Below are positions 25,701 to 54,123 of a stretch of 64,000 bases of DNA, one piece after another. Both the position numbers and the translations under genes were made by a program. The DNA lies in NCBI GenBank assembly GCA_037974665.1, contig CM075766.1:50352569-50416568 (forward strand). The letters are read 5' to 3'. Below the pieces are notes generated by a model. It worked only from the letters and a program-made list of their open reading frames with translations. It had not been told where the DNA came from and searched no databases. The stretch comes from Ehretia macrophylla (Eukaryota; Streptophyta; Magnoliopsida; Boraginales; Ehretiaceae). Numbering within the stretch: position 1 is the first letter of the stretch; each line of letters begins with the position of its first letter.

Positions 25701-27020
25701 TTTCTGTAACAAATAATTTAATTTATTCACAGTCAATACATATAAGAAAATCAAGTAAATCTAGATATAGGAAAATTCGACAAAATATTAAGTATAGGAT
25801 GACTAATGGACTTTAAGTTTTCTTGGATGGCAAAGTTAAAATTTCATTAATCGAAAAAATGATTATTTTCAATTTGTCGCAATTAATTTTTTATTTCTCA
25901 CTTTTTCATATGGTCAATGAACGCAAAATTATTATAAATGGAGTACAAAGCCAACCGCATCTTGAATTCTTTCAAAATTAATGTGGGATGAAGTGTCTTA
26001 TACCAACTGTATCTTGGATTCTTTGGGCTAAGAAGAAAATATAAAGCCCAATTATGTTCTTATACATCCAACTGATTATAACAAACAGAAGGGTTGATGT
26101 TTTGCATATTTCAGCCTGCTTCAAAAGGCCCAAAACCACGCCATTGGCAATGGGTTCATCAGTTTTTATCCTTTTACTTCTCTTTCTTAGTGATACTTCT
26201 TGTTGAGGCTTTTACGGAAAAAAAAAAAAAAAAAAAACATTACCTTAAACATAATCCTTGATTGATTTCTTTAAACGTAATTACAAGCCAAATCACACTA
26301 AATCGAGCCTTTTTATCCTGTTAAGTTTCTTTATGTCAAACCAAACTAAATCAAAATTTTATTACACTAGGTGAGGTCGGTTTTTTTATGATTTACCCTA
26401 ATTTGTTCAAACCTATACTACCTACTACAAACTTTTGATGCATGTTGAGAGTTCAGTTTCATCAAATGTTGAGAAGAGTTAAAAGCTCATATCACTTCCA
26501 AAGCCATGGGAGTCTCAAAATAAATATGTAAAGACCATGTCATTGTGAAAAAATAAGTACCTTTTTGTTTAGTACTTTATTAGTTTGAAGTATGCGTTGG
26601 GTCATACCGCTATACAATAGAATTTACAATATTGAATTAAATCCAATATGATTATATATATTAAAGTAAGTTTCTCGTCATAAAAAAAAAAAAATACACG
26701 TTTCATTCACGTTCAACCAGGTGGAAGATGGGTAGGACTAAGTACTAACCAAAGCCACAAAGTATAGATGCAGTGGATAAACTTTCTAAAAATCTTGTTC
26801 CACAAAAAATAAACGTAACGGAAAATGAACAGAAGCCAAGAAAAATATTGTCCATGTCAACAGACTCCTTATAGCTCTTCGTGTATGCACCTCATAATAG
26901 TCCACATTTATCCATACATTGTTTTTTCCTCTTTATAATCTTAATCTACTCAACAATACCATAAGTTACTAAAACTTGCACGAAGAGACATTCGTCTAAC
27001 AAAATTACATCTAACAAAGT
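22713..27020. other. Intergenic region between receptor kinase and malate dehydrogenase
   Basis: AT-rich spacer holding the promoters of two divergent genes. Several TTGAC/GTCAA cores (for example near 22870-22885 and 23654) lie upstream of the receptor kinase, compatible with WRKY sites but common by chance. One foldback MITE at 24819-25196 and a poly(A) run near 26220 are the only clear structures. Confidence 0.55.
24819..25196. mobile_element. Foldback MITE, MULE type, 378 bp
   Basis: Almost the entire element is one long imperfect inverted repeat: the left arm from GTAAATGTATAATTTAGTCC mirrors the right arm ending GAATTAAATTATATATTTTC, with the centre near 25005. It is bounded on both sides by TATATTATT (24810-24818 and 25197-25205), a 9-bp target duplication as made by Mutator-like transposases. 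No coding capacity. Confidence 0.8.
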
Positions 27021-29536
27021 ATGCAGTCAAGAACAGAAGCTAACCAGCGCATAGCAAGAATTGCAGCTCATCTCCATCCTTTGAATCCCCAGGTGCATAT
27101 TATAATATAACCTTGAAGGGAATCATATTCAGTTTTTCAGTATGTCTTACATGCTCCTTTTTTTTATATGAATTTGAGATTTCATGATATTACCGTCGCG
27201 AGAGAGTTTTCCAGTGTGTCTGCATGCTGTCACTAAAAGATAGTGCTGATGGCTGTAGTTTATTGCTATTATCATGGACTGATGTGTAATATTTGTTTGA
27301 CAATGTAATGAAGATGGAGGAGAGTTCCATGTTGGGACGAGCCAATTGCAGAGCAAAAGGTGGTGCACCTGGATTCAAAGTTGCTATATTGGGTGCTGCT
27401 GGTGGGATTGGCCAACCACTTGCTTTGTTAATGAAGATGAATCCACTAGTCTCGGTTCTTCATCTCTATGATGTTGTCAACACTCCTGGTGTTACCGCTG
27501 ATATTAGCCACATGGACACTGGTGCAGTGGTAAGTACCTTTCTGATCATTATCCATAACTTCCGTCATTTCACATTCGTTTGTAAAAGATACGTGTCCAG
27601 TTTATGTATGTATTGCTGGATTTCAGGTACGCGGTTTTTTGGGACAACCACAACTGGAGAGTGCTCTAACAGGAATGGACCTTGTTATTATACCGGCTGG
27701 TGTGCCTAGAAAGCCAGGAATGACTAGAGATGACCTATTCAATATCAATGCCGGAATTGTTAGGACCCTTTGTGAAGGAATTGCTAAGTGCTGTCCTAAT
27801 GCAATTGTTAACTTAATCAGTAATCCAGTGAATTCTACAGTTCCAATTGCTGCAGAAGTTTTCAAGAAAGCAGGGACTTATGATCCAAAGAAGCTACTTG
27901 GAGTGACCATGCTTGATGTTGTGAGAGCCAACACTTTTGTGGTATGTATAAATGTTACAAGTGCTTATAACAAAATTATCTCCTGAAAGCTTTCTGTTCA
28001 AGCTCTACTCACCGATTACATCTTGAGTCCTGCGAGTCTACTAACGGGAACATTGTTGGTTATTCATGTTAACCTAATGAATTCTCTGCTTCATTGCCAT
28101 TTAATGGTTCCTTGAGCTTGACATCAGCTTTCTTGATCCAAACATATCATATATTTGAAAACTATGATGAGGCAGGCGTTTCAATTACTCGAGATACCAT
28201 ATTTCTTTAAGAAAAATTCGATGGAGAAATCGAAATTATAAGTTCTTTTCCTTTTCTGACGTTGATAATCTTAAGTTTCCTCTTTGTAGGCAGAAGTTTT
28301 AGGACTTGACCCTAGGGAAGTTGACGTTCCTGTTGTTGGAGGTCATGCTGGAGTAACAATTTTGCCTCTTCTTTCACAGGTACTAGAACACTCTTTCACT
28401 AAGCATTCAATTTACTTGCCTCAGGCATCGGTTGACTTGGTGCTTAGAGGACGAAACAGCTTACTTGCTTTCACTCTCAACAGGTTAAGCCTCCTTGCTC
28501 CTTCACTCCAGAGGAAACTGAATACCTTACAAAGCGCATTCAAGACGGTGGAACAGAAGTTGTCCAGGTAAGGTCAATCATCTTTTAGCGCATGCATACA
28601 GTACATATACTTGGAGATTAGCTCATTCATCAAGGAGTGGAAATTGATCGATGTTTAGTGAATATATATCAACATTAAAAATGATAAGGAATTTACAAAC
28701 ATCTTATACACTAGGATACTTTCAATTGTTTGTAACACTAACATGGAATTCGAGCTTGAGTATAATCCTAACGATGTGTACTCAGTTCTGCCCCATAAAG
28801 AATGCTTCTACCTCAGAAAACATAAGTTGTTCCTGTACATCACTATGACTTCTGCTAAAAATCCTTTCATCATACTGAAACTAAAGTGAATTGCCTATGA
28901 CATTAATCAGGAGAGGTTTTCCTAATCTTTGCAGGCAAAAGCTGGAGCTGGTTCTGCAACACTATCAATGGTTAGTTGTGATCTTTCTCAATTTTCTGCA
29001 TTTACGGCAGAATACTTTCGAAATTTTGTAAGAATAATGAGCAGCTGACAGTAGCAAATCTGTTGTTGGTTAGGCATATGCAGCAGTTAAATTTGCAGAT
29101 GCATGCCTCCGAGGATTAAGAGGAGATGCGGGTGTAGTCGAATGCTCTTTTGTATCGTCTCAGGTACTCTACGCAAGCTTCAGTTCTACTTGGAAATCCT
29201 TCCAACCTTTTTTGTAAGATTGCCTAACAAATATAAGAGTGATATGTGTCAGGTCACAGAACTTCCTTTCTTTGCCTCTAAGGTGCGACTTGGTCGTGGT
29301 GGAGCCGAAGAAGTCTACCAGCTCGGTCCCCTGAATGAGTACGAGAGGTATGATATAATCCCTTGATAGTGATGGCATTCACAAAACGGGCAACAACACA
29401 AGTTTTCTTAGTTGTTTTCTGCATAATGTAGTTTCGTCTTGCTCACTTGATGAATTTTTACAGGGTGGGTTTGGAGAAAGCAAAGCAAGAATTAGCAGTC
29501 AGCATCCAGAAGGGCATTTCGTTCATCAGAAAATAA
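27021..29536 (+). CDS. gMDH: Glyoxysomal/peroxisomal NAD-malate dehydrogenase with PTS2
   Basis: Interconverts malate and oxaloacetate with NAD, serving the glyoxylate cycle, beta-oxidation and photorespiration in peroxisomes. Nine exons: 27021-27092, 27314-27529, 27627-27941, 28290-28379, 28484-28567, 28935-28970, 29074-29163, 29253-29347, 29464-29536; 356 residues, the usual family length. Exon 1 encodes a PTS2 signal matching R-[IL]-x5-[HQ]-[10 protein letters not shown] (10-18). Cys36 in RANCRAKGG is the expected presequence cleavage point for the family. NAD-binding loop GAAGGIG (51-57), substrate-binding [21 protein letters not shown], and the catalytic [11 protein letters not shown] are all intact. 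One variation: [13 protein letters not shown] where relatives I recall have LGRCGIEEVYPLG. Convergent with the TIN1-like gene. Confidence 0.97.
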
Positions 29537-30152
29537 ACTTTTTAGAAGCTTTGTGTTATTCTCCACATATCACATGCACACTGAGATGTTTAATATCAAG
29601 CTTGTATCCGATGATAATAAGACTTAACTGGTTATCAAAGAGACTTGAACAATCATTTGGCATCCACGAATGCCTAGACTCGTCCCTTCAATATATACTA
29701 TATGCAGCTTACCAGCTCGGGAGGGGTCCGTTTAATACACATGTAGACCCCATCATCATGTGAGGCCCACTTATGCGAACAAGCTGAAACATTTTTCATT
29801 TAAGATAGCCAACACATCCTATTAAAAATGGGGTAAGTCGCAGACCTTATATAGCTGAGAGAGAATCTTATTCTTTCTAACTAAGAGAGAATCTTATTCT
29901 TTCTAAGAAAACTACACAAGTTAAAAAGAGTATAATTTGTATCAGCACACAGCATGAAAATGAGGTGCTCTAAATAGTCTATGATAGCTTCTTTCACAAA
30001 TTTCTACAGTATCAGATGCTGTCAGCTATCTGACGTATAAGATTAGTATACAACTTATGGAGGAAAACCAAAAGAAAAGAAAGAAAAAGAAAAAGAAAGA
30101 AAGTTGCTTCTTTACATTTTTCTCAACTTCCAAACTATCACCCTCCATGAGT
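29537..30152. other. Convergent 3' region of malate dehydrogenase and TIN1-like genes
   Basis: 3'UTR territory. Contains a 24-bp tandem duplication around 29859-29907 (GAGAGAATCTTATTCTTTCT core, twice) and a purine-rich A/G tract at 30066-30104. No gene seen. Confidence 0.6.
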
Positions 30153-33156: not shown

Positions 33157-34519
33157 CTTGTTTTTTTTTTACCCTTTTGCTTAATCAGATTTTCTTTTTT
33201 CTTTTTCACATCCATTAGTGATAAAAAAAATTAAAAAAAATGAAGTAAACCCCCAAATGGAAAGGGAAGAAAAGCTGAAATTTTGTGGTATATTATAAAG
33301 AGGAAAGATCTTGGCTATTATTATATTATAATATGAGAAACAACAATGATTACTCACATCATAAATTGAAGTGGATAATTACTCTGTTAGAAGACCTGTT
33401 TTTTTTGTTTACTGCATTCATAATTACTATCTACAAATATTTACATTGATTACCATTTTTTTGGGATAATAGATAGTTAACGGATAATTACTCTGTTAGA
33501 GTTGGGTTGTTGGACTATTTTGTTATATATGCAGCCTTATTGTGAATGAACATGTTCTCTGGGTTGAGTTTATCATAATGGCATAGCCCACAAGTGTGGC
33601 AAAAACGTAAAAAAAGAACTCTGTAGTAGTTGAGTTGGGTCGAAACCCACACAAGCATGCGGGTTAGGTTTAAGTTTAAAAATCTTAACTTGATAAGAAT
33701 TTAGTCTACTTTGATTCGGTAACTCATCTCACTTCAACTCAACAACCTCTTTTGTGAAAAAAAAAATGAAAATTTTGTTGTTTATACATTTTCCCTCAAA
33801 ACATGTTAAATATTAGTTGTTTTGGGGAAAACGTAAAAAAGATTGTCACAACAGAGAAGTAGATTGGCAGGTAGGGAAATTGGAAGTAGTTGTGTGCATG
33901 AAGGACTAAATTGACACTGAAAGACGCACGCAAAGAATATCAGAGATGGAAGACAATTCTAAAGAAAATATATTTTTAAGGGGTCCAACTCGCTTAGTGA
34001 AGATCTCGAAGATCATTTATACAAAGAACAATATTAGTTGCATTGAAGAAATGAAGAAATTAAAACAATCCCTTATAATAGTTTTTATTTTGTCTCACAA
34101 CTAAAAATAATTATTTGGATTTGACTTTTCTTGTTTTGATATTTTTACTATTTCTTATTTCAATTTATGTAAGGTAAATTTGTTAAATTAATAAAACTTT
34201 TGAGATACTTTTAACAACCCTAGTATATAGAAGTTCATTTATATATATTTTTTGTTTTATTTTGTTTAATAAAAAAAAGGGGTCGGCACAAACCTGGCTC
34301 AATTAATCTATTTCATTTGCGTAGGAATAATTAATCGTACTAGAGTTCATTATTTGTGAATCTCAGTCTACCCCATCCTAACTCGGATAATAACGATGGG
34401 GCTACTGCAGTTTATCAAAATTTCAAAATTTGGAGCCATTTATTGAGAAGAAGTTTCAAATTTTATTTTCAAAGTCAAGATTCAATTATGGCATTCAAAA
34501 TTACTGATGATTACTTTAT
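33157..34519. other. Intergenic region without recognisable gene
   Basis: AT-rich spacer between the tRNA and the nested transposon. It holds a short direct repeat (GGATAATTACTCTGTTAGA at about 33373 and 33482). The segment at 34462-34487 is shared with 46166-46191 on the other side of the transposon. Confidence 0.55.
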
Positions 34520-34917
34520 GGGTAAATGGCACGGGATCCCTATATGATTTTATTCATGTACAAGTTTGCCCCCTTGTGTTTTGTAAAGTGCACGTTTGTG
34601 TCTTATGGTTTATGAAAAGGTGCACGTGTCCCTTCCCCCTCCCCCCATGTCCTGTTAGAAAAACCGTCAAACTTAACAACGAGTGTAGCACATGCACGAA
34701 TTTTGAAATGCTGCGAGTTTTTTTTGGGTAAATACACAGGCCCTCCTGTGGTTTTATTCATGTGCACGTTTGCCCCTGTATTTTGTAAAGTGCACAAGAC
34801 CCCCACGTAGTCGATGAAACGGTGCAGACGCCCTTAATGCTAATATTTGTTAATTTTTTAACAACACTGTTTAAAATAATGTATATGCCATTTTAAATAA
34901 ACATAATAATAAAAAAA

Positions 34918-35190
34918 AAACCAGCCCCACCATTCACCAATACCCGCTACCCCTCACTCTTACTCCCTACCACCCACCTCTACCCCCCACCTCCACTCCC
35001 ACCCCCACCCCCACTAGCACCATCCCTACAAACCTTCACCAACACCATATCAGTACTCCCAAACCCGCCGCCAGCATCCCTCACCCCCACCAGCCCCTAA
35101 CTCGCCACAAATATCACAAAAGTACCCCTCCCTACCAACACAACGTGACCATGCACAGCAGCACCTCAAAATTATTATTTACAATTGTGA
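34918..35190. repeat. C-rich low-complexity stretch inside the outer element
   Basis: Dominated by CCCCAC/CCACC-type runs, densest at 34983-35013; the minus strand has several G-runs of 3-6 and could form a G-quadruplex. Contrasts sharply with the AT-rich surroundings. No coding features. Confidence 0.6.
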
Positions 35191-35214
35191 ATTCACTACA
35201 AAAAAAAGGCTGAG

Positions 35215-35690
35215 GCAATGGCCAAAATTCGTAGCCTAGCAGTAGCCAAATTGGGACGGACGACCGCTAGGTTACGGAATCCCGTCTAAAAAAGCTTGTC
35301 GCCAAATTGATATTCAATAGCCCATCCGTAGCCAATTTCGGAAATTAATTTGTATTTATTTTTTATAACTTCCGTAGCAAAATAGTCGTAACTCGTCCGT
35401 AGCCAACTAAAACTTTGATATTTTTAATTAATTATTAACGTCCGTAGCAAATCCGTAGCCATTTCGATTGTAAATTATCCGTAGCCCATGACTACGGAAT
35501 AGTGTCCGTAGAATATCAGTAGCCTTTTTTCCGTAGCCAATCCGTAGCCCATTCGTAGCTAACTAAAATTTTGATTTTATTATTATTTATTAACATCCGT
35601 AGCAAAGCGTTAGCTACTTCGGTCGTAAATCAGTCGTCGCCCATGACTACCGATTGTTATGGTAGCCAATCTATAGCCTATTGAATTAAA
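35215..35690. repeat. Left subterminal repeat zone of the CACTA element
   Basis: More than a dozen variants of CCGTAGCC/CCGTAGCAAA and their inverse lie within 480 bp, then an (AT)n run at 35706-35742. Family knowledge: such motifs near CACTA ends bind the TNPA-type protein. Confidence 0.75.
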
Positions 35691-35691
35691 T

Positions 35692-35705
<14 letters not shown>

Positions 35706-35739
<34 letters not shown>

Positions 35740-38700
35740 TATTAACAAAAAAAAATTAAAAATACAAATTAATATTTACAATACGTTTATAATATTTACA
35801 AAAAAAAAAACTAATACAAAAATAATATTAATTTACAAAAAAAGCTAAAATGATCTATTATTGTCTTCTAATCATCTCGCTCATATGGTTTTAATGTCTA
35901 CAAAGCTTTTCTTTTCTCTTTCTGTACTTTCTCATACTCTTTCAAAGTCATCTCCTATTACACCTCAAATAAATATGCATAAATAATACACAAATATTAC
36001 TTTAAGATATTTAGAACAGTTTAATTTATTAAATTCCTCATCTACATATATATTGTCAAATTTATTCTCCCGACACAATTTAACTAATGAAATAGTATTA
36101 AAAAGACACCAAGACCTCATAAGTTAGAAGAGAAATGTAATTAAATCTCCCAAGTAATATTTTGCATATAGAAGTGTCGTTTGTATGAAATTATATTATT
36201 ATCTACCTTTCTAATATATATATTATTCTTCATATCACCAATGTCATTTGCATAAAAGGGGATACAAGTTGGAGAAAATTGATGCATTCATATAGAAAAG
36301 AGAAATCGTATCACAGTTTGAACCATTGTAAGCCAGATATGCACAATCCTTAACAGGAATAGTTCAATCGTCAAACATATATGAAAAATATTCAGTCACG
36401 TTCCCTCCACCGAGTATGCATTTAGATACATTTGCAAATCATAGCAAAACTATATTCAACGCCAATGAATTCATCCAAAAATCTGTTAATTACTAAACAA
36501 AAAGCCTAAAAATTAATCTCATCAAGGTTGGTGTTATCTTATGCAAAGTGAAGCATGACTCATAACCTACCTCCTACAAATCATTGCTAATATATCTCAT
36601 GATCCATACATGATATGTACATATGCCTAGTGACTAAATCACAGGAATAATATGAATCACTTACAAATCCATAAAACAAGCCTAGATTTTTCTTCAACAC
36701 GTGTGTCTAAGAAAGATAAACCATGATTAGGAAAACCTAAAGAAAATGTGCAACTAAAGAAAAGTTTGAAAACACAGGGACATAAATACTTACAATACCA
36801 TAACACTCAACTCCATATGAAGAAGGATTATCTTCTTCAACATCATCCTCTTTTTTTAAATCTCAACAAAGCCAATCCTAAATCACTTAACAAAACGTGA
36901 TTCCATTATTTCAATTCTAAATTAGCATGACTCTATTATTTCAATTCTGAATTAGAACGACTCTATTATTTCAACTCTAAATTAGCACATGACTTCATTA
37001 TTTTCACATATAACAAAAGAATAGCACCACTAACCAAATAACATTTCATATTCGCTACATTGGCATTAACATATACATATTGAACTATAAACGTAGTACA
37101 TATTTAACTCTAAACTATTTACCTATAGATAGAGATAGGAATATGGTGGTGGTGCTCTTGGTGGTGGTGATAGTGCCATTGGTGGTGTTGATGATGCCCT
37201 TGATAGTGGTGATGGGGGCGGTACTCTTGGTGATGTCTTTGGTAGTGCCCTTAGTAGTGATGATAAATAAAAATTAAATAAATAAATGAAAAAAACCAAT
37301 ATTTTACAAATAAAATATAGATTATATATATATATATACATACACACACAAATATAAACTAGTATATTACACTACTTTTGATGGTGTTGGTGATGCCCTT
37401 GGTAGTGGTTGTTAGTGGTGGTCGTGTCCTTGGTGTTGATGGTGTCACGTTCCGACCCAACCCATTCATAGAAGTCAAGTCTGAACGCGACAATAATCGA
37501 ACAGAGTCTCCCCTTAATTACGGACATTCCAACACCTGTACAGTTATACTCAATGTCAACAACAAATACACAAAAACACCTTCTTGAACCTTTGCTTATG
37601 CATAACATGCTAAACATAATATTTTTTCATAATAGGTCTATGTAAGCTTAGCAACATTTACAAGTCCAAGTAATTTAAAGTTCATGTATAGAAAGCTTTG
37701 AAGTCTCACAGTATTAGCTAGACTTGTCTTTAGTCACAAGTTCTCAAGATAAATTACAATCCATAAAGCAAAGACTTTTTAAGTTAAAAAATAAGCTAAG
37801 TATGCTTTAGTTACATTTCTAAAGTGATTCATAAACTTGCAACTAAACTCTTTGATTTCCATAAGTCAAAAGCTATGATCTAACATGTGTATAATGGAAC
37901 TTTGTTGCAAAATGAACTATACAACTTGCAAAACATCATAATCTGATCGTTTAATTCAATATAACTCATAATACATTCACAACCAATAATTCAATCGTTT
38001 CACATATCTAGTGATAGCAAAATAGGCTACCACCTATAGCATTCACACATATTTTACCCATTTTTCGTTAGCAATTAACTTGCACAAGAGCACCATTAAG
38101 TTCACATGATAATAATTTTTAGCAATCTAACTAACTAACAACATAAACAAGTCACATTTCCACTTGAAATCCAAGGAAATTTACAGATTCCAACTTTAGG
38201 CCTTATTTTGCAAGCATGAATCATGTATATATATTGTATGCAATGTATGTAGGCCAAAAATACTCATTCAAGCATTTTATCAAACATATAATCAACATAC
38301 TATACAACTATATCAAACAACAACACCTACATAAAGTCTCTAACTTTCAACAATATTATATACATGTACATCACATTTACTTCATAATAAACAACTTAAC
38401 ATGTGAATTCATAGCCCAATTTAACACTAAAGACCCAAAATATTTAAGTAGTATATTGCACTACCAAATAACATTTCATATTGCACAACCAAATATGACT
38501 ACAATACAACATTTGTAATTCACACAATATTTATGCCAAATATAATACCAAATATTTATGTCAAATATTACTAAATAAAATTCGAAATAAACATAAAATT
38601 AAGTACAAAAACTATAGATTGGGCAAATAAAAATCTAAAATTCTCACACATATACATATATGCATATATATACACACACATATATATACATATGTGTATA

Positions 38701-39024
38701 GTAGACAAAAAAGAGGAAAAATATAAACCCTAAACTATTTACCTATAGAAAAGAAAGAAGGAGATGGTGGTAATGGTGATGGTACCCTTGATGGTGGTGG
38801 TGGTGGTGGTGGTTCTCTTGTGGTGTTGGTGGTATTAATGGTACCCTTGGTGGTGGTTGGTGGTGGTAGTGGTACCTTTAGAAGTAGTGGTTGTGTCCTT
38901 GTTAGTGATGGTGCCTTTGGTAGTGGTGATGGTGGCCATGGTGGTGGTGGTGGTTGGTGGTAGTGCCTTAGAGAGAGAGAGAAAAGAAAGAAAATTTCGT
39001 AGAGAAGGAAAAAAAGTAGACGTA
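35706..39024. other. AT-rich CACTA interior with GGT/TGG microsatellites
   Basis: Starts with an (AT)n tract (35706-35742). Contains three (TGGTGG)-type tracts at about 37144-37262, 37380-37445 and 38764-38970, the last followed by (GA)n. A repeated sequence (ACCCTAAACTATTTACCTATAGA-like) precedes two of the TGG tracts (about 37107 and 38726), so the tract region is itself a diverged duplication. No gene features; open frames here translate to Val or Thr runs. Confidence 0.6.
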
Positions 39025-39025
39025 A

Positions 39026-39330
39026 ATGAAAAAAACTTAAATAAATTTTCGTAATTGTAGTTCAAAAAATAAACGCGGGCGAATGGCAGGCTACGGCCAT
39101 TCCATAGCCAAACAATGCGGGCGATGGAATGGTCGTAGCCATTCCGTCACCCCCGCCGGAAGGAGGTACCTGCCGGCCGGCGTCAACATCCGGTGAGAGC
39201 CGAGGCCAAGTCCGGCGGGCGGCCATTCCGTCACCCGAGTTGTTTGGCTACAGAATGGCCGTAGCCTGGCAGTTGCCCACGTTTATTTTTTGAACTACAA
39301 CTAGAACTTTATTCAAGTTTTTTCATTTCC
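39026..39330. repeat. Large GC-rich hairpin (inverted repeat, ~110-bp arms)
   Basis: The left arm (about 39026-39140) and right arm (about 39215-39330) are inverted copies: TTGTAGTTCAAAAAATAAAC at 39055-39074 mirrors 39280-39299, and similarity continues outward to the GAAATGAAAAAA block and inward through the CTACGGCCATTC motif. The 75-bp centre is strongly GC-rich (CCGCCGG, GCCGGCCGGCG). It lies at the left border of the palindromic array. Confidence 0.8.
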
Positions 39331-42300
39331 CACTACTTTTTTTGACTCCTAGATTGAACGTTTACTAACATTAACGCAATGTTAAGTGAAAACATGATAA
39401 GTTCGATTTAAACGACAATTTATTTCTCTATAAAAGTACGCACGTCAATGAAATACGGACCAAATTTATTTTTATTTGAAAATTTTGCAACTCAAGTGAA
39501 GTTTACTACGTTATAGTGCAATCAAAATTCTATAATTCAAATTAGAAATGATAAAACTTAATTTTTTGTTGAAGTCCGTAGCCCAACAGTAGCCAAATCA
39601 GGAGCCAATTGACTACTGCTGGGCTACGAAAAAGTTGAAGTTCGTAGCCTAGCAGTAGTCAATATATTATATATTTTAACTTGTTAATAGGTATGACAAC
39701 GTATTAAAACGTGTTAATATCTTCATATTTTTCTTATTTATGAAGTTTAGACATAATGTGAGAGTTTTTGGACGACTAGATTAAAAGTTAATTAACGTTA
39801 ACGCAATGTTAAGTGAGGACATGATAAGTTCGATTTAAACGACAATTGATTTTCTATGAGATTTCTCTATAAAAGTATGCACGTTAATGAAATACAGATC
39901 AAGTTTATTTTTTTTTGAAAAATTTGCAACTCAAATAAAGTTTACTACATTGTAGGTTCAATCAAAATTCTATAATTCAAATTAAAAACGATAAAATAAA
40001 GTTTTTTGTTGAAATCCATAGCCCAGCAGTAGCCAATTGGCTACTGCTGGGCTACGAAAAAGTTGAAGTCCGTAGCCTAGCAATAGCCAATTGGTTACTG
40101 CTGGGTTACGGAATACTTATATTATATATTTTAATTTATTAATAGGTAGAAACAACGTATTAAAATGTGTTAATATCTTTATATTTTTCTTATTTATGAA
40201 GTTTAGATATAATGTGAGAGTTTTTGGACGACTAGATTAAAAGGCAATTAATGTTAACGCAATGTTAAGTGAGTACATGATAAGTTCGATTTAAATGATA
40301 ATTGATTTTCGATGAGATTTCTCTATAAAAATATGTACGTTAATGAAATACAGATTAAGTTTATTTTTTTCTGAAAAATTTGCAACTCAAGTGAAGTTTA
40401 CTACGTTGTAGATTCAATAAAAATTCCATAATTCAAATTAAAAATGATAAAATAAAGTTTTTTATTGAAATCCGTAGCCCAATAGTAGACAATTGGCTAT
40501 TGTTGGGCTACGGAAAAGTTGAAGTCCGTAGCCTAGCAGTAGCCAATTAGCTACTACTAGGCTACAGAATACTTATATTATATATTCTAATTTGTTAATA
40601 GGTAGGAACAACGTATTAAAACGTGTTAATATATTCATGTTTTTTTTATTTATGAAGTTTAGACATAATGTGAGAGTTTTTAGACCACTAGATTGAACGT
40701 TAATTAACGTTAACGCAATGTTAAGTGAGCACATAATAAGTTCGTTTAAACGACCATTGATTTTCTACGACATTTCTCTATAACAGTACGGACGTTAGTG
40801 AAATACGGATCAAGTTTATTTTTTTTTTGAAAAATTTGCAACTCAAGTGAAGTTTACTACGTTGTAGGTTTAATCAAGATTCCTTAATTAAAATTAAAAA
40901 TGATAAAACAAAGTTTTTTGTTGAAGTCCGCAGCCCAGCAGTAACCAATTGGCTACTACTGGGCTACAGAATACTCATATTATATATTCTAACTTGTTAA
41001 TAGGTAAGAATAATGTATTAAAGCGTGTTAATATCCTCATATTTTTCTTATTTATGAAGTTTAGACATAATGTGAGAGTTTTTGGACCACTAGATTGAAC
41101 GTTAATCAACGTTAACACAATGTTAACTGAGCACATGATAAGTTCGATTTAAACGACTATTGATTTTCTATGAGATTTCTCTATAAACGTACGCACGTTA
41201 ATAAAATATGGACCAAGTTTTTTTTTTTTAAACATTTGCAACTCATGTGAATTTTACTACGTTGTAGGTTCAATCAAAATTCTATAATTCAAATTAAAAA
41301 CGGTAAAACTCAATTTTTTGTTGAAATTCGTAGCCTAGCAGTAGTCAATTGACTACTGCTGGGCTACGGAAGAGTTGAAGTCCGTTGCCCAGCAGTAGCC
41401 AATTGGCTACTGCTGGGCTACGAAAAAGTTGAAGACAATAGCCTAGAAGTAGCCACTGCTAGGCTACGGAATACTTATATTATATATTCTAACTTATTAA
41501 TAACTAGGAACAACATATTAAAAAGTGTTAATATATTCATTTTTATGAACTTTAGACATAGTGTGAGAGTTTTTGGACGACTAGATTGAACGTTAATTAA
41601 CATTAACGCAATGTTAACGGAGGACATGATAAGTTCTATTTAAACAACTATTGATTTTCTATGAGATTTCTCTATAAAAGTACGCACGTTAATGAAATAT
41701 AGACCAAGTTTTTTTTTTTGAAAAAAATTGTAACTCAAGTGAAGTTTACTACGTTGTAGGTTCAATCAAAATTCTATAATTCAAATTAAAAACGATAAAA
41801 TAAAGTTTTTTGTTGAAATCTGTAGCCCATCAGTAGCCAATTGGCTACTGCTGGGCTACGGAAAAGTTGAAGTCCGTAGCCTAGCAGTAGCTAATTAGCT
41901 ACTGTTAGGCTACGAAATACTTATATTATATATTCTAATTTGCTAATAAGTAGGAACAACATATTAAAACGTGTTAATATATTCATATTTTTCTTATTTT
42001 TTGAAGTTTAGACATAATGTGAGAGTTTTTTGACCACTAGATTCAACGTTAATTAATGTTAACACAATGTTAAGTGAGCACATGATAAGTTCGTTTAAAC
42101 GACTATTGATTTTCTATGACATTTCTCTATAAAAGTACGCACGTTAATGAAATACGGATCAAGTTTTTTTTTTTTTTTTTGAAAAAATTGCTACTCAAGT
42201 GAAGTTTACTACGTTGTAGGTTCAATCAAAATTCCATAATTCAACAAAAAACGTTGGCTATTGCTGGGCTACGGAATACTTATATTATATATTCTAACTT

Positions 42301-44990
42301 GTTAATAGGTAGGAATAACGTATTAAAACATGTTAATATCTTCATATTTTTTATATTTATGAAGTTTAGACAAAATGTGAGAGTTTTTGGACTACTAGAT
42401 TGAACGTTAATCAACGTTAACACAATGTTAAGTGAGCACATGATAAGTTCGATTTAAACGACTATTGATTTTTTATAAGATTTCTCTATAAACATACGCA
42501 CGTTAATAAAATACGGACCAAGTTTATTTTTTTATTTTTGAAAAATTTACAACTCAAGTGAAGTTTACTACGTTGTAGATTCAATCAAAATTCTGTAATT
42601 CAAATTAAAAAACATAAAACAAAATTTTTTGTTGAAGTCCGTAGCCTAGCAGTAGCCAATTAGCTATGGAATTCAACTCTTCCGTAGCCCAACAGTAGCC
42701 AATTGGGCTACGGAATAATTGAAGTCCGTAGCCTAGTAGCAGCCAATTGGCTACTGGTGGGCTACGAAATACTTATATTATATATTCTAACTTGTTAATA
42801 GGTAGGAATAACGTATTAAAACGTGTTAATATCTTAATATTTTTCTTATTTATGAAGTTTGGACATAATGTGAGAGTTTTTGGACGACTAGATTAGAAGT
42901 TAATTAACGTTAACGCAATGTTAAGTGAGCACATGATAAGTTCGATTTAAACGACTATTAATTTTTTATGAGATTTCTCTATAAACAGACGCACGTTAAT
43001 GAAATACGGACCAAGTTTATTTTTTTTTTGAAACATTTGCTACTCAAGTGGAGTTTACTACGTTGTACGTTCGATTAAAATTTCATATTTCAAATTAAAA
43101 ACGGTAAAACTCAATTTTTTGTTGAAATTTGTAGCCTTGCAGTAGCCAATTGGCTACTGCTGGGTTACGGAATAGTTGAAGTCCGTAACCCAGCAGTAGC
43201 CAGGACTACGGAAAAGTTGAAGTCCGTAGCCTAGCAGTAGCTAATTGGCTACTGCTGGGCTACAGAATACTTATATTGTATATTCTAACTTGTTAATAGG
43301 TAGAAATAACGTATTAAAATGTGTTAATATCTTCATATTTTTCTTATTTATAAAGTTGAGACATAATGTGAGAGTTTTTGGACTACTAGATGAAACGTTA
43401 ATTAATGTTAACGCAATTTTAAGTGAGTACATGATAAGTTCGATTTAAACGACTATTGATTTTCTATGAGATTTCTCTATAAACGTACGCACGTTAATGA
43501 AATACAGACCAAGTTTTTTTTTTTTGTTAAACATTTACAACTCAAGTGAAGTTTACTACGTTGTTGGTTCAATCAAAATTCCATAATTCAAATTAAAAAC
43601 GGTAAAGCTCAATTGTTTGTTGAATCTGTAGCCTAGTTACAACTAGGGTACAGAGGAGTTGAAGTCCGTAGCTGGCTACTGCTGGGTTATGGAAAAGTTG
43701 AAGTTCGTAGCCTAGCAGTAGCCATAAGTATTCCGTAGCCTAGCAGTAGCCAATTGGCTACTGCTAGGCTACGAAATACTTATGTTATATATTCTAACTT
43801 GTTAATAGGTTGGAACAACGTATTAAAAATTGTTAATATCTTCTTATTTTTCTTATTTATGAAGTTTAGACATAATGTGAGAGTTTTTGGACGACTAGAT
43901 TGAACGTTAATTAACATTAACGCAATGTTAAGTGAGGACATGATAAGTTTGATTTAAACAATTATTGATTTTTTATGAGATTTATCTATAAAAGTACGCA
44001 CGTTAATAAAATACGGATCAAGTTTATTTTTTTTAAAAAATTTGTAACTCAAGTGAAATTTACTACGTTGTAAGTTCAATCAAAATTCTATAATTCAAAT
44101 TAAAAATGATAAAGCTTTATTTTTTATTGAACTTTGTAGCCCAGCAGTAGCCAATTGGCTACTGCTGGGCTACGGAAGAGTTGAAGTCCGTAACCCAGCA
44201 GTACCCAATGGAATACTTATATTATATATTCTAACTTGTTAATAAGTAGGAACAACATATTAAAAAATGTTAATATCTTCATATTTTTCTTATTTATGAA
44301 GTTTAGACATAATGTGAGAGTTTTTGGACGACTAGATTGAACGTTAACACAATGTTAAGTGGGACATGATAAGTTCGATTTAAACAACTATTGATTTTTT
44401 ATGAGATTTCTCTATAAAAGTACTCACATTAATGAAATACGGATCAAGTTTATTTTTTTTTTGAAAAATTTGTAACTCAATTGAAGTTTATTACGTTGTA
44501 GGTTCAACCAAAATTCCATAATTCAAATTAAAAATGATAACGCTCAATTTTTTTGTTGAAGTTCGTAGCCCAACAGTAGCCAATTAGCTACAGAATACTT
44601 ATATTATATATTCTAACTTATTAATAGGTATGAACAACGTTTTAAAACTTGTTAATATCTTCATATTATTCTTATTTATGAAGTTTAGACATAATGTGAG
44701 AGTTTTTAGACCACTAGATTGAACGTTAATTAACGTTAATATAATATTAAGTGAAGACATGATAAGTTCAATTTAAACTACTATTGATTTCTCTATAAAA
44801 GTACGCACGTTAATGAAATACAGACCAAGTTTATTTTTTGTTGAAAAATTTGCCACTCAATGAAGTTTATTACGTTGTAGGTTCAATCAAAATTTCATAA
44901 TTCAAATTAAAATGATAAACGTCAGTTTTTGTTGAAGTCCGTAGCCTAGAAGTAGCCACTTGGCTGTTGTTGGGCTACGAAAGAGTCGAA
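39331..44990. repeat. Satellite-like tandem array with palindromic motifs
   Basis: About 12 full units plus a partial first one. The marker GTGAGAGTTTTTGGACGACT (and variants) recurs near 39757, 40213, 40669, 41069, 41561, 42018, 42375, 42860, 43367, 43877, 44315 and 44696, so spacing runs from about 357 to 510 bp. Each unit has a conserved AT-rich body and a variable block made of one to several palindromes of the form GTAGCCCAGCAGTAGCCAA plus its reverse complement. Unit length varies mainly with the number and completeness of these palindromes. The motif is the CCGTAGC repeat of the element's ends, so the array probably grew out of the CACTA element itself. Confidence 0.9.
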
Positions 44991-45605
44991 TTCCGTAGCC
45001 CATCCGTAACTAGAGACTACGGATGGGCTCCGAACTTTGTTATTTTATTTTTTCCTATTTAATTAAAATATTCGTATTTAATTTATTAAAATATTTTTTG
45101 AATAATATATATAGTCCGTAGTCAATCCGTAGCTATTAGTCACTGCATAGCTACGAAACTTTTTATTAATTTTTTTTGTCGAATTAATTAGCTAATACGT
45201 AGTAAATTTACCACGAATAGGCTATGGAATATTATTTTTTTAATTTTTTTATTAATTAAAATTATTATCCGTAGTCAATCTGTGGCTATTTGGCCATTGC
45301 ATGGCTACGGGCTTTTTTATAAATTTTTTTTACTGAATTAATTAAATAATCTGTAGCTAGTCCGTAGCAAATTTGTCACGGCTAGGTTATGGAATATTAT
45401 TTTTTATTTTTTTTATTAATTAAAATTATGGTCCGTAACCAATCCGTAGCCAAGTTTTGTCGTCATTTCAACTGTGCCTAAGTTGGCTACAGATGGGCTA
45501 TGGAATTTATTGCCTGTAGCAAATCCGTAGCTTGGCAGTAGCCAATTTGCTACGGAATAAATCCGTCACCAAATTCCGTCGCTCGAGTGCTATTTTCTTG
45601 TAGTG
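44991..45605. repeat. Right subterminal repeat zone of the CACTA element
   Basis: Many CCGTAGC/GCTACGG variants in both orientations, diverged, up to the terminal TTTTCTTGTAGTG at 45593-45605. Counterpart of the left subterminal zone. Confidence 0.75.
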
Positions 45606-46051
45606 ATTTAAGGTAAAAGTAATTTTGTCCATAAAATTCTTATTTTAAGATGACAAAAAAAAAACTCTTAGCATCTCAAAATCTGCATGTGTGCTACACT
45701 CGCTGTTAATTTGGACATTTTTCTAACAGGGGATGTGAGCACCTTTTCATAAACCATAGAGGACAAACGTACACTTTATAAAACATAATGGGCAAACGTG
45801 CACATGAAAAAAATTGCAGAGAGTCCCGTGCCAATTTACCCTTTTTTTATTAGTCTTTTTTTTTATTTAAAAGGGCATATATATCATTTTAAATAGTGCT
45901 GATAAAATATTAACAGATATTAACATTAAGGCGGGGTCTAAACCGTTTTATAAATAACAGAAGAATTTTGTGTACTTTAAAAAACATAAAAAACAAACGT
46001 ATATATAAATAAAATCATAAAGGGATTCTGTGCTGTTTACCTTTACCTTAT

Positions 46052-46310
46052 CAATTAGTCTATGTTCTGCCATGATCAGCAATAGAAAAATTGTTGGGCA
46101 CGGATTGAAAAAGCTACGACATGCTTGACAGTACCAAATAAACACCATGCTTTTCTTCTCAAAATTTATTTTCAAAGTCAAGATTCAATTAGTCTATGTT
46201 CTGCCACGGTCAGCAATAGAAAAATTGTTGGGTACGGATTGAAAAAGCTACAAAATGCTTGACAGGACGGTTCAACACCAAATAAACACCATGCTTTTTC
46301 ATAATGTCAA
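46052..46310. repeat. Tandem duplication flanking the outer element
   Basis: The block CAATTAGTCTATGTTCTGCC... occurs at 46052 and again from 46186, with about 134-bp period and about 90% identity over most of its length. The unit's end (TTATTTTCAAAGTCAAGATT) also appears left of the transposon at 34462-34487, showing which side the insertion split. Confidence 0.75.
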
Positions 46311-53578: not shown

Positions 53579-54123
53579 GGGAAAATGTCACATTTATTCC
53601 TTATTGTTTCTTTTTAGTTTCAGTTTAGTCTCTATTATTTACAATGTCTTAATTTTGTTCTTATTATTTCTAAAAAAATATCAATTTCATTCCTATTATT
53701 TTTAGAAAATCTCAATTTTGTCTTTATTGTTTTTCTAAAGTGTTAAAATCCATCTCTATTGTTTAAAATGTCTTCATTTAATCTCTATTATTTCTAAAAA
53801 AAACAAATTTGTCCCTATTATTTCTCAAAAAAATTTAATTTAATCCTTGAATAGTAAGGACGAATTTAAAATTTTAAGAAAACAATAAGAATGAAATTGA
53901 AACTATATGAAAATAATAGGGCAAAATTAAAACTTTTTTAAAATAATAAGGACGAAATTAAAGCTTTTGAGAAATAATAAGGATGAAATTAATAAATTTT
54001 AAATAATAGGGATGAAATTGAAACTTTTAAAAAAATAATAAAGACAAAATTGAGATATTTTAAATAATAAGGACCAAATTAAAACTAAAATAAAACAATA
54101 GGAATTAAATGTGAAATTTTCCC
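53579..54123. mobile_element. Foldback MITE, MULE type, with 10-bp target duplication
   Basis: 545 bp starting GGGAAAATGTCACATTTATT and ending with the inverse AATGTGAAATTTTCCC. TTTGTGTGTA flanks both sides exactly (53569-53578 and 54124-54133). The two arms are largely inverted copies built from ~40-bp sub-repeats (ATTTCRTTCCTATTATTTxx). A 9-10-bp duplication points to a Mutator-like transposase. No coding capacity. Confidence 0.88.

Follow-up and report, generated by a model that had tools for sequence, protein, structure and literature searches.

The window, the whole stretch of 64,000 nucleotides of Ehretia macrophylla DNA analysed here, contains a CACTA (En/Spm) element that is non-autonomous and belongs to a large family, and it is on balance probable that the 5′, promoter-side subterminal region of this family has been expanded to a tandem array forming a TNPA-like platform. 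The array in the window is most likely such an expanded 5′ subterminal region, with putative sites for a TNPA-like protein, and in relatives seen to carry both, it is situated on the 5′ side of the transposase gene. The element consists of the following parts:

35194..45605, + strand: whole non-autonomous CACTA element of 10,412 bp, with target-site duplication ATT at 35191-35193 and 45606-45608
35194..35700, + strand: left terminal and subterminal region with 14 CCGTAGCC-like motifs
35701..39008, + strand: non-coding middle, without Pfam match and without CCGTAGCC-like motif
39009..39343, no strand: fold-back before the array, an inverted repeat with core arms of 84 nt, containing a CCGTAGCC-like motif
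39338..39657, + strand: partial first unit of 320 bp, from the unit alignment
39658..45002, + strand: 12 tandem units of 359-509 bp, from Tandem Repeats Finder, self-BLAST and the unit alignment
45005..45605, + strand: right subterminal and terminal region; it has 14 CCGTAGCC-like motifs and a separate set of repeats, each about 164 bp long

The left terminus, CACTACAAAAAAA at 35194, and the right terminus, which reads CACTACAAGAAAA on the other strand and ends at 45605, are alike in 12 of 13 bases, start with CACTA as is typical of the superfamily, and are flanked by ATT on both sides. By the coding sense of the transposase-bearing relatives the left region is the 3′ end and the right region the 5′ end. 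The earlier note had placed the array inside a CACTA element with ends and target duplication, which is borne out here; its coordinates, 39331..44990, left both completing ends outside. No Pfam domain was found in the six frames of the middle; the array, scanned in all three forward frames and, over its first 3 kb, in the three reverse frames as well, likewise gave none, and no Rfam family matched within 34500-46100. The window copy thus has no transposase domain in the frames scanned. The middle is common, entirely or in part, to four relatives (L039, L040, L041 and L043, 81-92% identity), the fold-back is matched in several relatives, and the truncation point of the partial first unit, at body position 106, recurs in L039 and L018.

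The array, detected by both Tandem Repeats Finder and self-BLAST, has unit lengths up to position 45002 of 458, 456, 402, 500, 446, 359, 493, 498, 509, 437, 382 and 405 bp in order, and together with the partial unit this agrees with the 12-13 units of 357-510 bp counted earlier. Each unit has an AT-rich body of about 347 bp, followed in most units by one to three palindromic inverted dimers; the bodies have a mean pairwise identity of 0.888 in the unit alignment and no self-BLAST match elsewhere in the element. Each palindrome is an inverted dimer of the outermost subterminal repeat of the element itself. The motif shared with the termini, already proposed before, was recovered: with at most one mismatch, CCGTAGCC occurs 14 times in the left end, 66 times in the array and 14 times in the right end (shuffle means 0.27, 0.70 and 0.20) and is absent from the middle. 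The element thereby carries subterminal motif repeats at both ends (14 and 14), as CACTA elements do, and in the array one motif is repeated in tandem within non-coding sequence, as in VANC-type targets. The terminal-repeat 21-mer, at up to four mismatches, was found 49 times in the element and not at all in 200 dinucleotide shuffles or in the rest of the window. All four palindromic blocks tested were predicted to form much more stable structures than their shuffles (z −9.4 to −13.3), in line with the suggestion that transcripts could form serial hairpins, and the two body stretches tested folded no better than shuffles (z 0.29 and 0.47).

Genome-wide, 376 left and 481 right family ends were found at up to three mismatches (controls 0 and 0), as well as 2,982 units (control 2). 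Right-end sequence adjoins 20 of the 22 distinct arrays chosen by unit matches, one of these having only the first 106 bp of the right end, while the letters of the other two arrays stop short. Inversely, the four copies chosen by their ends alone, blind to units (L042, L043, L044 and L075), all carry units. The array is therefore a family feature adjoining the right end, and the supposed growth inside the window copy is not supported; its presence in many family members makes an assembly artefact an unlikely source. Target-site duplications match in four of five two-ended copies (ATT in the window, AAT in L039, AAA in L041, ACA in L042) and differ by one base in L075, a copy of 2.2 kb composed of the left end, three bodies of which one is whole, and the right end, without a middle. 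Among the elements read, the number of body-length units ranges from 1 to 12. No transposase domain was found in L042:2650-7600 or in L040:1-2700, and L042 may hold a captured host-gene fragment.

The earlier statement that there is no transposase is valid for the window copy and fails for the family, in which Transposase_21 (tnp2) transposase was identified through one relative, L044, and through Transpos_assoc exons. Beside its array L044 encodes Transpos_assoc, Transposase_21, DUF4218 and DUF4216, with the gene start toward the array side. Among the matches listed, 53 of 150 Transpos_assoc exons have a family end with the gene start toward the array side (32 with a right end, 34 with a left end, 13 with both) and a single one shows the reversed arrangement; the distance from exon to left end clusters near 6.2 kb. 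Among the matches listed there are 13 cases of units near such an exon, and in all 13 the units are on the 5′ side of the gene; they were found between exon and right end in at least 10 of the 32 exon-right-end pairs and never between exon and left end in the 34 cases with a left end. Eight of the 13 cases belong to a cluster on C17 and are probably segmental copies of one insertion, which leaves about six independent cases. The lists of ends were compiled by hand, omitting nine left and two right ends, all of them more than 20 kb from any exon in the lists, and the unit positions were 119 hand-picked cluster representatives among the matches listed. L044 may be unusual within the family, since its left end was not recovered and the other matches to its transposase, at least 108 with 78-90% identity, all lie more than 20 kb from any right end in the lists. 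Two further candidates were rejected. C1:28243634, the only same-strand pair within 20 kb upstream when 150 listed PF02992 matches were set against 119 array coordinates (0.11 expected by chance), is 11.6 kb from its array in the other orientation and was not accepted as the family transposase. A transposase leader kept in the middle of the window element was likewise dismissed, the weak similarity to L044 (E 3e-8) being close to that of the best reversed or shuffled control (4e-8).

The array would have originated when a subterminal segment was duplicated in tandem in an ancestral element equipped with transposase, and would have been inherited as a block during transposition, with units gained and lost through unequal exchange or slippage. 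Unit order across element pairs was at chance level overall (5 of 120 at p ≤ 0.05); the pair relied on is L033/L027, on different chromosomes, with three collinear units (permutation p 0.01), and L040/L031, 170 kb apart on C18, is used with caution. If the palindromes bind a TNPA-like protein that the element encodes, the array could serve as a larger platform for regulation and for the transpososome, through promoter autoregulation or anti-silencing, and non-coding copies such as the window element would retain it as a cis component. A more specific and less probable version is that the family multiplied dimerised sites for its TNPA-like protein upstream of the transposase gene, as a landing platform of its own making, on which the protein would resist promoter silencing copy by copy.

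A reading of the array as an intermediate between transposon and satellite, proposed in the earlier note, or as a captured satellite, in which the unit either entered a CACTA element or is leaving one, is very improbable. The units are tandem and of satellite-like length, and capture has a precedent in PMC8978399. Body identity is however 0.906 within and 0.898 between elements (98 bodies, 19 loci), and bodies as different within as between elements argue against satellite-like homogenisation and concerted evolution. The palindromes match the element's own ends, the arrays read are short (at most 12 whole units), and no long transposon-independent array was seen within the roughly 299 kb read. 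The unit was not mostly placed as an independent satellite by the genome-wide search: of 43 unit clusters at least 24 have a right end of the family no more than 8 kb away, properly placed as to side and strand, and among the matches listed one has it in the wrong place and 19, which would fit a satellite and may include arrays outside elements, are without one. Among the 100 places listed the occurrences form scattered short clusters, and for an exact unit 20-mer with 534 matches the densest of these, with only 8, is the window itself. Given that the array is upstream of the transposase gene in relatives that keep one, an enlarged control region is likelier than a nascent satellite. Unit order across element pairs was at chance level overall (5 of 120 at p ≤ 0.05); the pair relied on is L033/L027, on different chromosomes, with three collinear units (permutation p 0.01), and L040/L031, 170 kb apart on C18, is used with caution.

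Of greater weight, and a credible contender, is that the array is a passive by-product: slippage or unequal crossing-over would have produced it a single time in a subterminal region rich in palindromes, and transposition would then have spread it as a neutral hitch-hiker. This would account for the variable unit number and for bodies equally different within and between elements, and no sign of constraint was seen on the palindromic blocks, which in one collinear pair were 93.7% identical against 95.9% for the bodies and hence not better conserved; conservation after insertion in dead copies tells little, however, of function in the source element. Less readily explained as a by-product are the same promoter-side place of the array in many copies and its retention even in the 2.2-kb copy without a middle. 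It is rather unlikely that the array is a silencing target or sink, with palindrome transcripts feeding small RNAs and methylation or the sites titrating a binding protein. The strong predicted hairpins would suit such a role, as would the excess of C-to-T type changes in the unit bodies (CG 0.126, CHH 0.091, far above A/T transitions at 0.008), but the bias is also present in the left end, right end and middle. Since it is thus not special to the array, a methylation footprint specific to it was rejected.

Maize En/Spm has short motifs in small subterminal regions and is not known to have an array of long units, and VANDALs are not classed as CACTA elements. Arrays of this kind have precedents in soybean, morning glory, Chenopodium and VANDAL. 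Maize TNPA binds subterminal motif repeats, the feature shared with the window family; transposition depends on it, and when it activates Spm this correlates with demethylation (PMC2613891, PMC10398659). Soybean Tgmt*, whose right border holds 12 palindromes within 732 bp and whose left border holds 2, and Tgm1 likewise have asymmetric subterminal regions in which one motif gives many stem-loops, although the motif is another and the stem-loops are compact, unlike the 359-509-bp units with a long AT-rich body (PMC2613891). Tpn1 of Ipomoea nil is a CACTA family with host-gene capture whose several hundred copies are mostly non-autonomous. Its tandem repeats, of 122 and 104 bp, are shorter and occur in both subterminal regions, and a palindrome-plus-body unit is not described in the portion available (PMC5105172). 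Transposase-bearing CACTA-like elements of Chenopodium contain a several-kb array of a 171-bp satDNA near one end, close to the 3′ end, whereas the units here are 5′ of the gene; its authors see no indication that the element generated the array and propose capture, while the window units carry the element's own terminal motif (PMC8978399). The VANC targets of VANDAL21 and VANDAL6 in Arabidopsis are also short motifs, bound by protein and repeated in tandem, that lie in non-coding parts, among them the region ahead of a transposon gene, and differ in number among copies, with the distinction that binding and demethylation were shown there and are putative here, and that VANC repeats are reported to evolve together while the present units do not (PMC5735166, PMC10398659).

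The account of a transposon turning into a satellite is replaced by a more testable one, in which the copies of a dispersed CACTA family carry an array of dimerised terminal motifs, variable in unit number, on the side where the promoter of the transposase gene lies. If the array is a landing platform for the family's own protein, it would be the CACTA counterpart of the VANDAL anti-silencing repeats, independently reached, and kept also by non-coding copies such as the window element. The hundreds of family ends, with differing unit numbers in the copies read, constitute a natural dose series bearing on whether such arrays shield transposons from silencing or aid their movement.

The genome of Ehretia macrophylla (1.58 Gb, 20 contigs) is rich in tnp2 transposases (1,891 candidates), and the window (contig C3:50352569-50416568) holds one non-autonomous CACTA element, the parts of which are listed here in window coordinates.

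Parts of the CACTA element
35194-45605: CACTA element with terminal inverted repeats (TIRs) and target site duplication (TSD)
35194-35700: left subterminal region
Between left subterminal region and fold-back: middle, 3.3 kb, without Pfam match
39009-39343: fold-back
39338-45002: array, comprising one partial unit and 12 further units (359-509 bp)
45005-45605: right subterminal region

The left end of the element reads CACTACAAAAAAA and the right end, on the other strand, CACTACAAGAAAA, with ATT on both flanks; no transposase was found in this copy. The AT-rich bodies of its units have a mean identity of 0.888, neighbours (0.898) being barely closer than far-apart units. Just beyond both element ends, inverted repeats with arms of 63-89 nt and 79-82% complementarity lie at 34570-34920 and 45657-45931, so placed that an older inverted-repeat element may have been the insertion site of the CACTA element. 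Minisatellites of ~30 bp occur in the element's middle (3.5 copies at 36898-37003) and as a 31-bp-based array at 53850-54120, and the Lactate/malate dehydrogenase domains at 27000-30000 (PF00056, PF02866) probably represent exons of a host gene.

Each palindrome of a unit consists of the subterminal sequence followed by its own reverse complement. An example of this sequence at a right end is CCGTAGCCTGGCAGTAGCCAATT, and copies of the family such as L041 have CCGTAGCCTAGCAGTAGCCAA directly inside the left TIR. Sixteen such dimers were counted in the window array and 10, 16, 8, 4, 4, 7 and 2 in seven relatives. The 21-mer core, with up to 4 mismatches, occurred 49 times in the element, 0 times in 200 shuffles and 0 times in the remaining window. 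Folding z-scores were -9.4 to -13.3 for four palindromic stretches and 0.29 and 0.47 for two body stretches. At another locus, L039 (C16:36.30 Mb, TSD AAT), both termini read CATTACAAG in place of CACTACAAG, the change being identical at each.

The array is a feature of a dispersed CACTA family. Searching with the unit yielded 1,163 candidate places, and the best 40, which were scored, contain 443 matches. An exact body 20-mer occurred 534 times genome-wide (control 0), and when up to 3 mismatches were allowed a body 24-mer had 2,982 occurrences (control 2). End queries gave 829 right and 771 left candidates, 40 of each being scored, and end patterns with up to 3 mismatches occurred 481 times for the right and 376 times for the left (controls 0). 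The 30 loci fetched by unit matches were grouped by place into 22 distinct arrays, and right-end sequence adjoins the array in 20 of these, with only its first 106 bp at L022/L031; at L016 and L018 the sequence read stops before any right end could appear. Four copies (L042, L043, L044 and L075) were picked from right-end matches or an end pair, blind to units, and all four contain units. They are the weightier test because the other loci were chosen for having units, and as most arrays read were picked in that way, support for an array in every family member is weaker. Thirteen distinct right flanks were found among 18 right termini compared, so more than one insertion must underlie the arrays.

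Many array-bearing copies lie at C17:36.2-37.4 Mb and C1:26.7-28.3 Mb, spaced roughly 70-240 kb apart. At L027 (C8:22147420-22151114) minus-oriented units are followed by plus-oriented units before one right end, forming an inverted array. The interior of L042 (2650-7600; C1:119.07 Mb, both ends, TSD ACA) has a weak ATP-synt match (PF00231), below the family cut-off, which is possibly a captured gene fragment.

The earlier note had proposed that the array grew inside the window copy, as an intermediate between DNA transposon and satellite. Among 98 bodies from 19 loci, identity within elements (0.906, 272 pairs) was hardly above that between elements (0.898, 4,481 pairs). Recent local amplification or homogenisation should each raise within-element identity clearly, and neither is therefore supported; growth in this copy was not borne out, and the supposed intermediate is without satellite-style homogenisation. 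L039 and L018 share with the window copy the body position at which the partial first unit starts, and this junction is thus probably inherited. Three units are in matching order in L033 (C16) and L027, and seven in L040 and L031, 170 kb apart on C18, which may be segmental copies. Across all pairs unit order was at chance level (5/120 at p <= 0.05), so either unit order decays fast or arrays rearrange.

From C1 to C4:7.3 Mb, where the listing of the exact right-end 16-mer is complete, there are 43 clusters of the exact 20-mer. The 16-mer lay within 8 kb, on the correct side and strand, in 19/43; as it is found exactly in 11 of 16 right ends compared (repeats left out), about 30/43 is the maximum expected from it alone. 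Adding ends from other listings, a right end was correctly placed in 24/43 clusters, and a wrongly placed end was seen in 1/43. Three of the 19 clusters unmatched by a right end (C1:64395814, C1:64757237 and C2:63132909) have a left end within 6 kb on the correct side by coordinates; the remaining 16 had no family end correctly placed among the ends listed.

Transposase genes were found beside the array in relatives. L044 (C19), read without its left end, has Transpos_assoc, Transposase_21, DUF4218 and DUF4216; these lie on the other strand from the array, with the gene start facing it. In L038 (C17) a Transpos_assoc exon adjoins the array in the same arrangement, and the 161 bp between them are 78% identical to L044. 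When the genome was searched with this exon, the best 150 of 1,465 candidates were scored; among the ends listed, 53 had a family end within 20 kb in the expected arrangement (right 32, left 34, both 13) and one showed the reverse. The exon-to-left-end distance clusters near 6.2 kb, and the exon-to-right-end distance varies from a minimum of 3.2 kb, which a variable array on the right-end side would predict. Among the units listed, 13 exons had units within 12 kb, on the 5' side and expected strand in 13/13; units lay between exon and right end in 10/32 pairs and between exon and left end in 0/34. The C17 cluster accounts for eight of the 13, and the three right flanks read there are all identical, suggesting segmental multiplication of one insertion, so there are about six independent cases, plus L044. 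From this arrangement, the right end is 5' when the element is read in the direction of the transposase gene of its relatives. The L044 transposase has at least 108 other matches at 78-90% identity, many with long open frames; among the matches and ends listed, L044 alone (C19:1049969) is within 20 kb of a right end. L044 may therefore be unusual, and its transposase group is perhaps a sister CACTA family. At C1:28243634 another transposase was found in opposite orientation, 11.6 kb away from an array.

Arrays of this type have precedents in other CACTA elements: at one border of soybean Tgmt*, the subterminal motif of the element forms 12 palindromes (PMC2613891); subterminal tandem repeats of 122 and 104 bp are present in Tpn1 (PMC5105172); and close to the 3' end of a Chenopodium CACTA, 171-bp units make up a 5.5-kb array, which the authors attribute to capture (PMC8978399). 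A tnp2 fragment has been described as a source of satellite monomers (PMC7320549). No published description of the unit or motif was recognised in the literature searched (titles and abstract starts, with most subscription journals outside the scope).

A serious rival explanation is that the array is a neutral hitch-hiker, and in the one collinear pair measured the palindromic blocks were no better conserved than the bodies (93.7% versus 95.9%), which speaks for it. The C-to-T type bias (CG 0.126 and CHH 0.091 versus 0.008 for A/T transitions) fits a methylated, silenced element; it is not informative on the array specifically, because the left end, right end and middle share it. The simplest reading, which we favour by a modest degree, is that the array is an enlarged 5' subterminal region with putative sites for a TNPA-like protein. 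TNPA of En/Spm binds to subterminal repeats and is needed for transposition (PMC2613891), and demethylation is correlated with the activation of Spm by TNPA (PMC10398659). In the present family the terminal motif has built up, in dimer form, into tandem repeats on the side of the promoter. These offer more candidate binding sites, which would serve autoregulation, anti-silencing or transposition.
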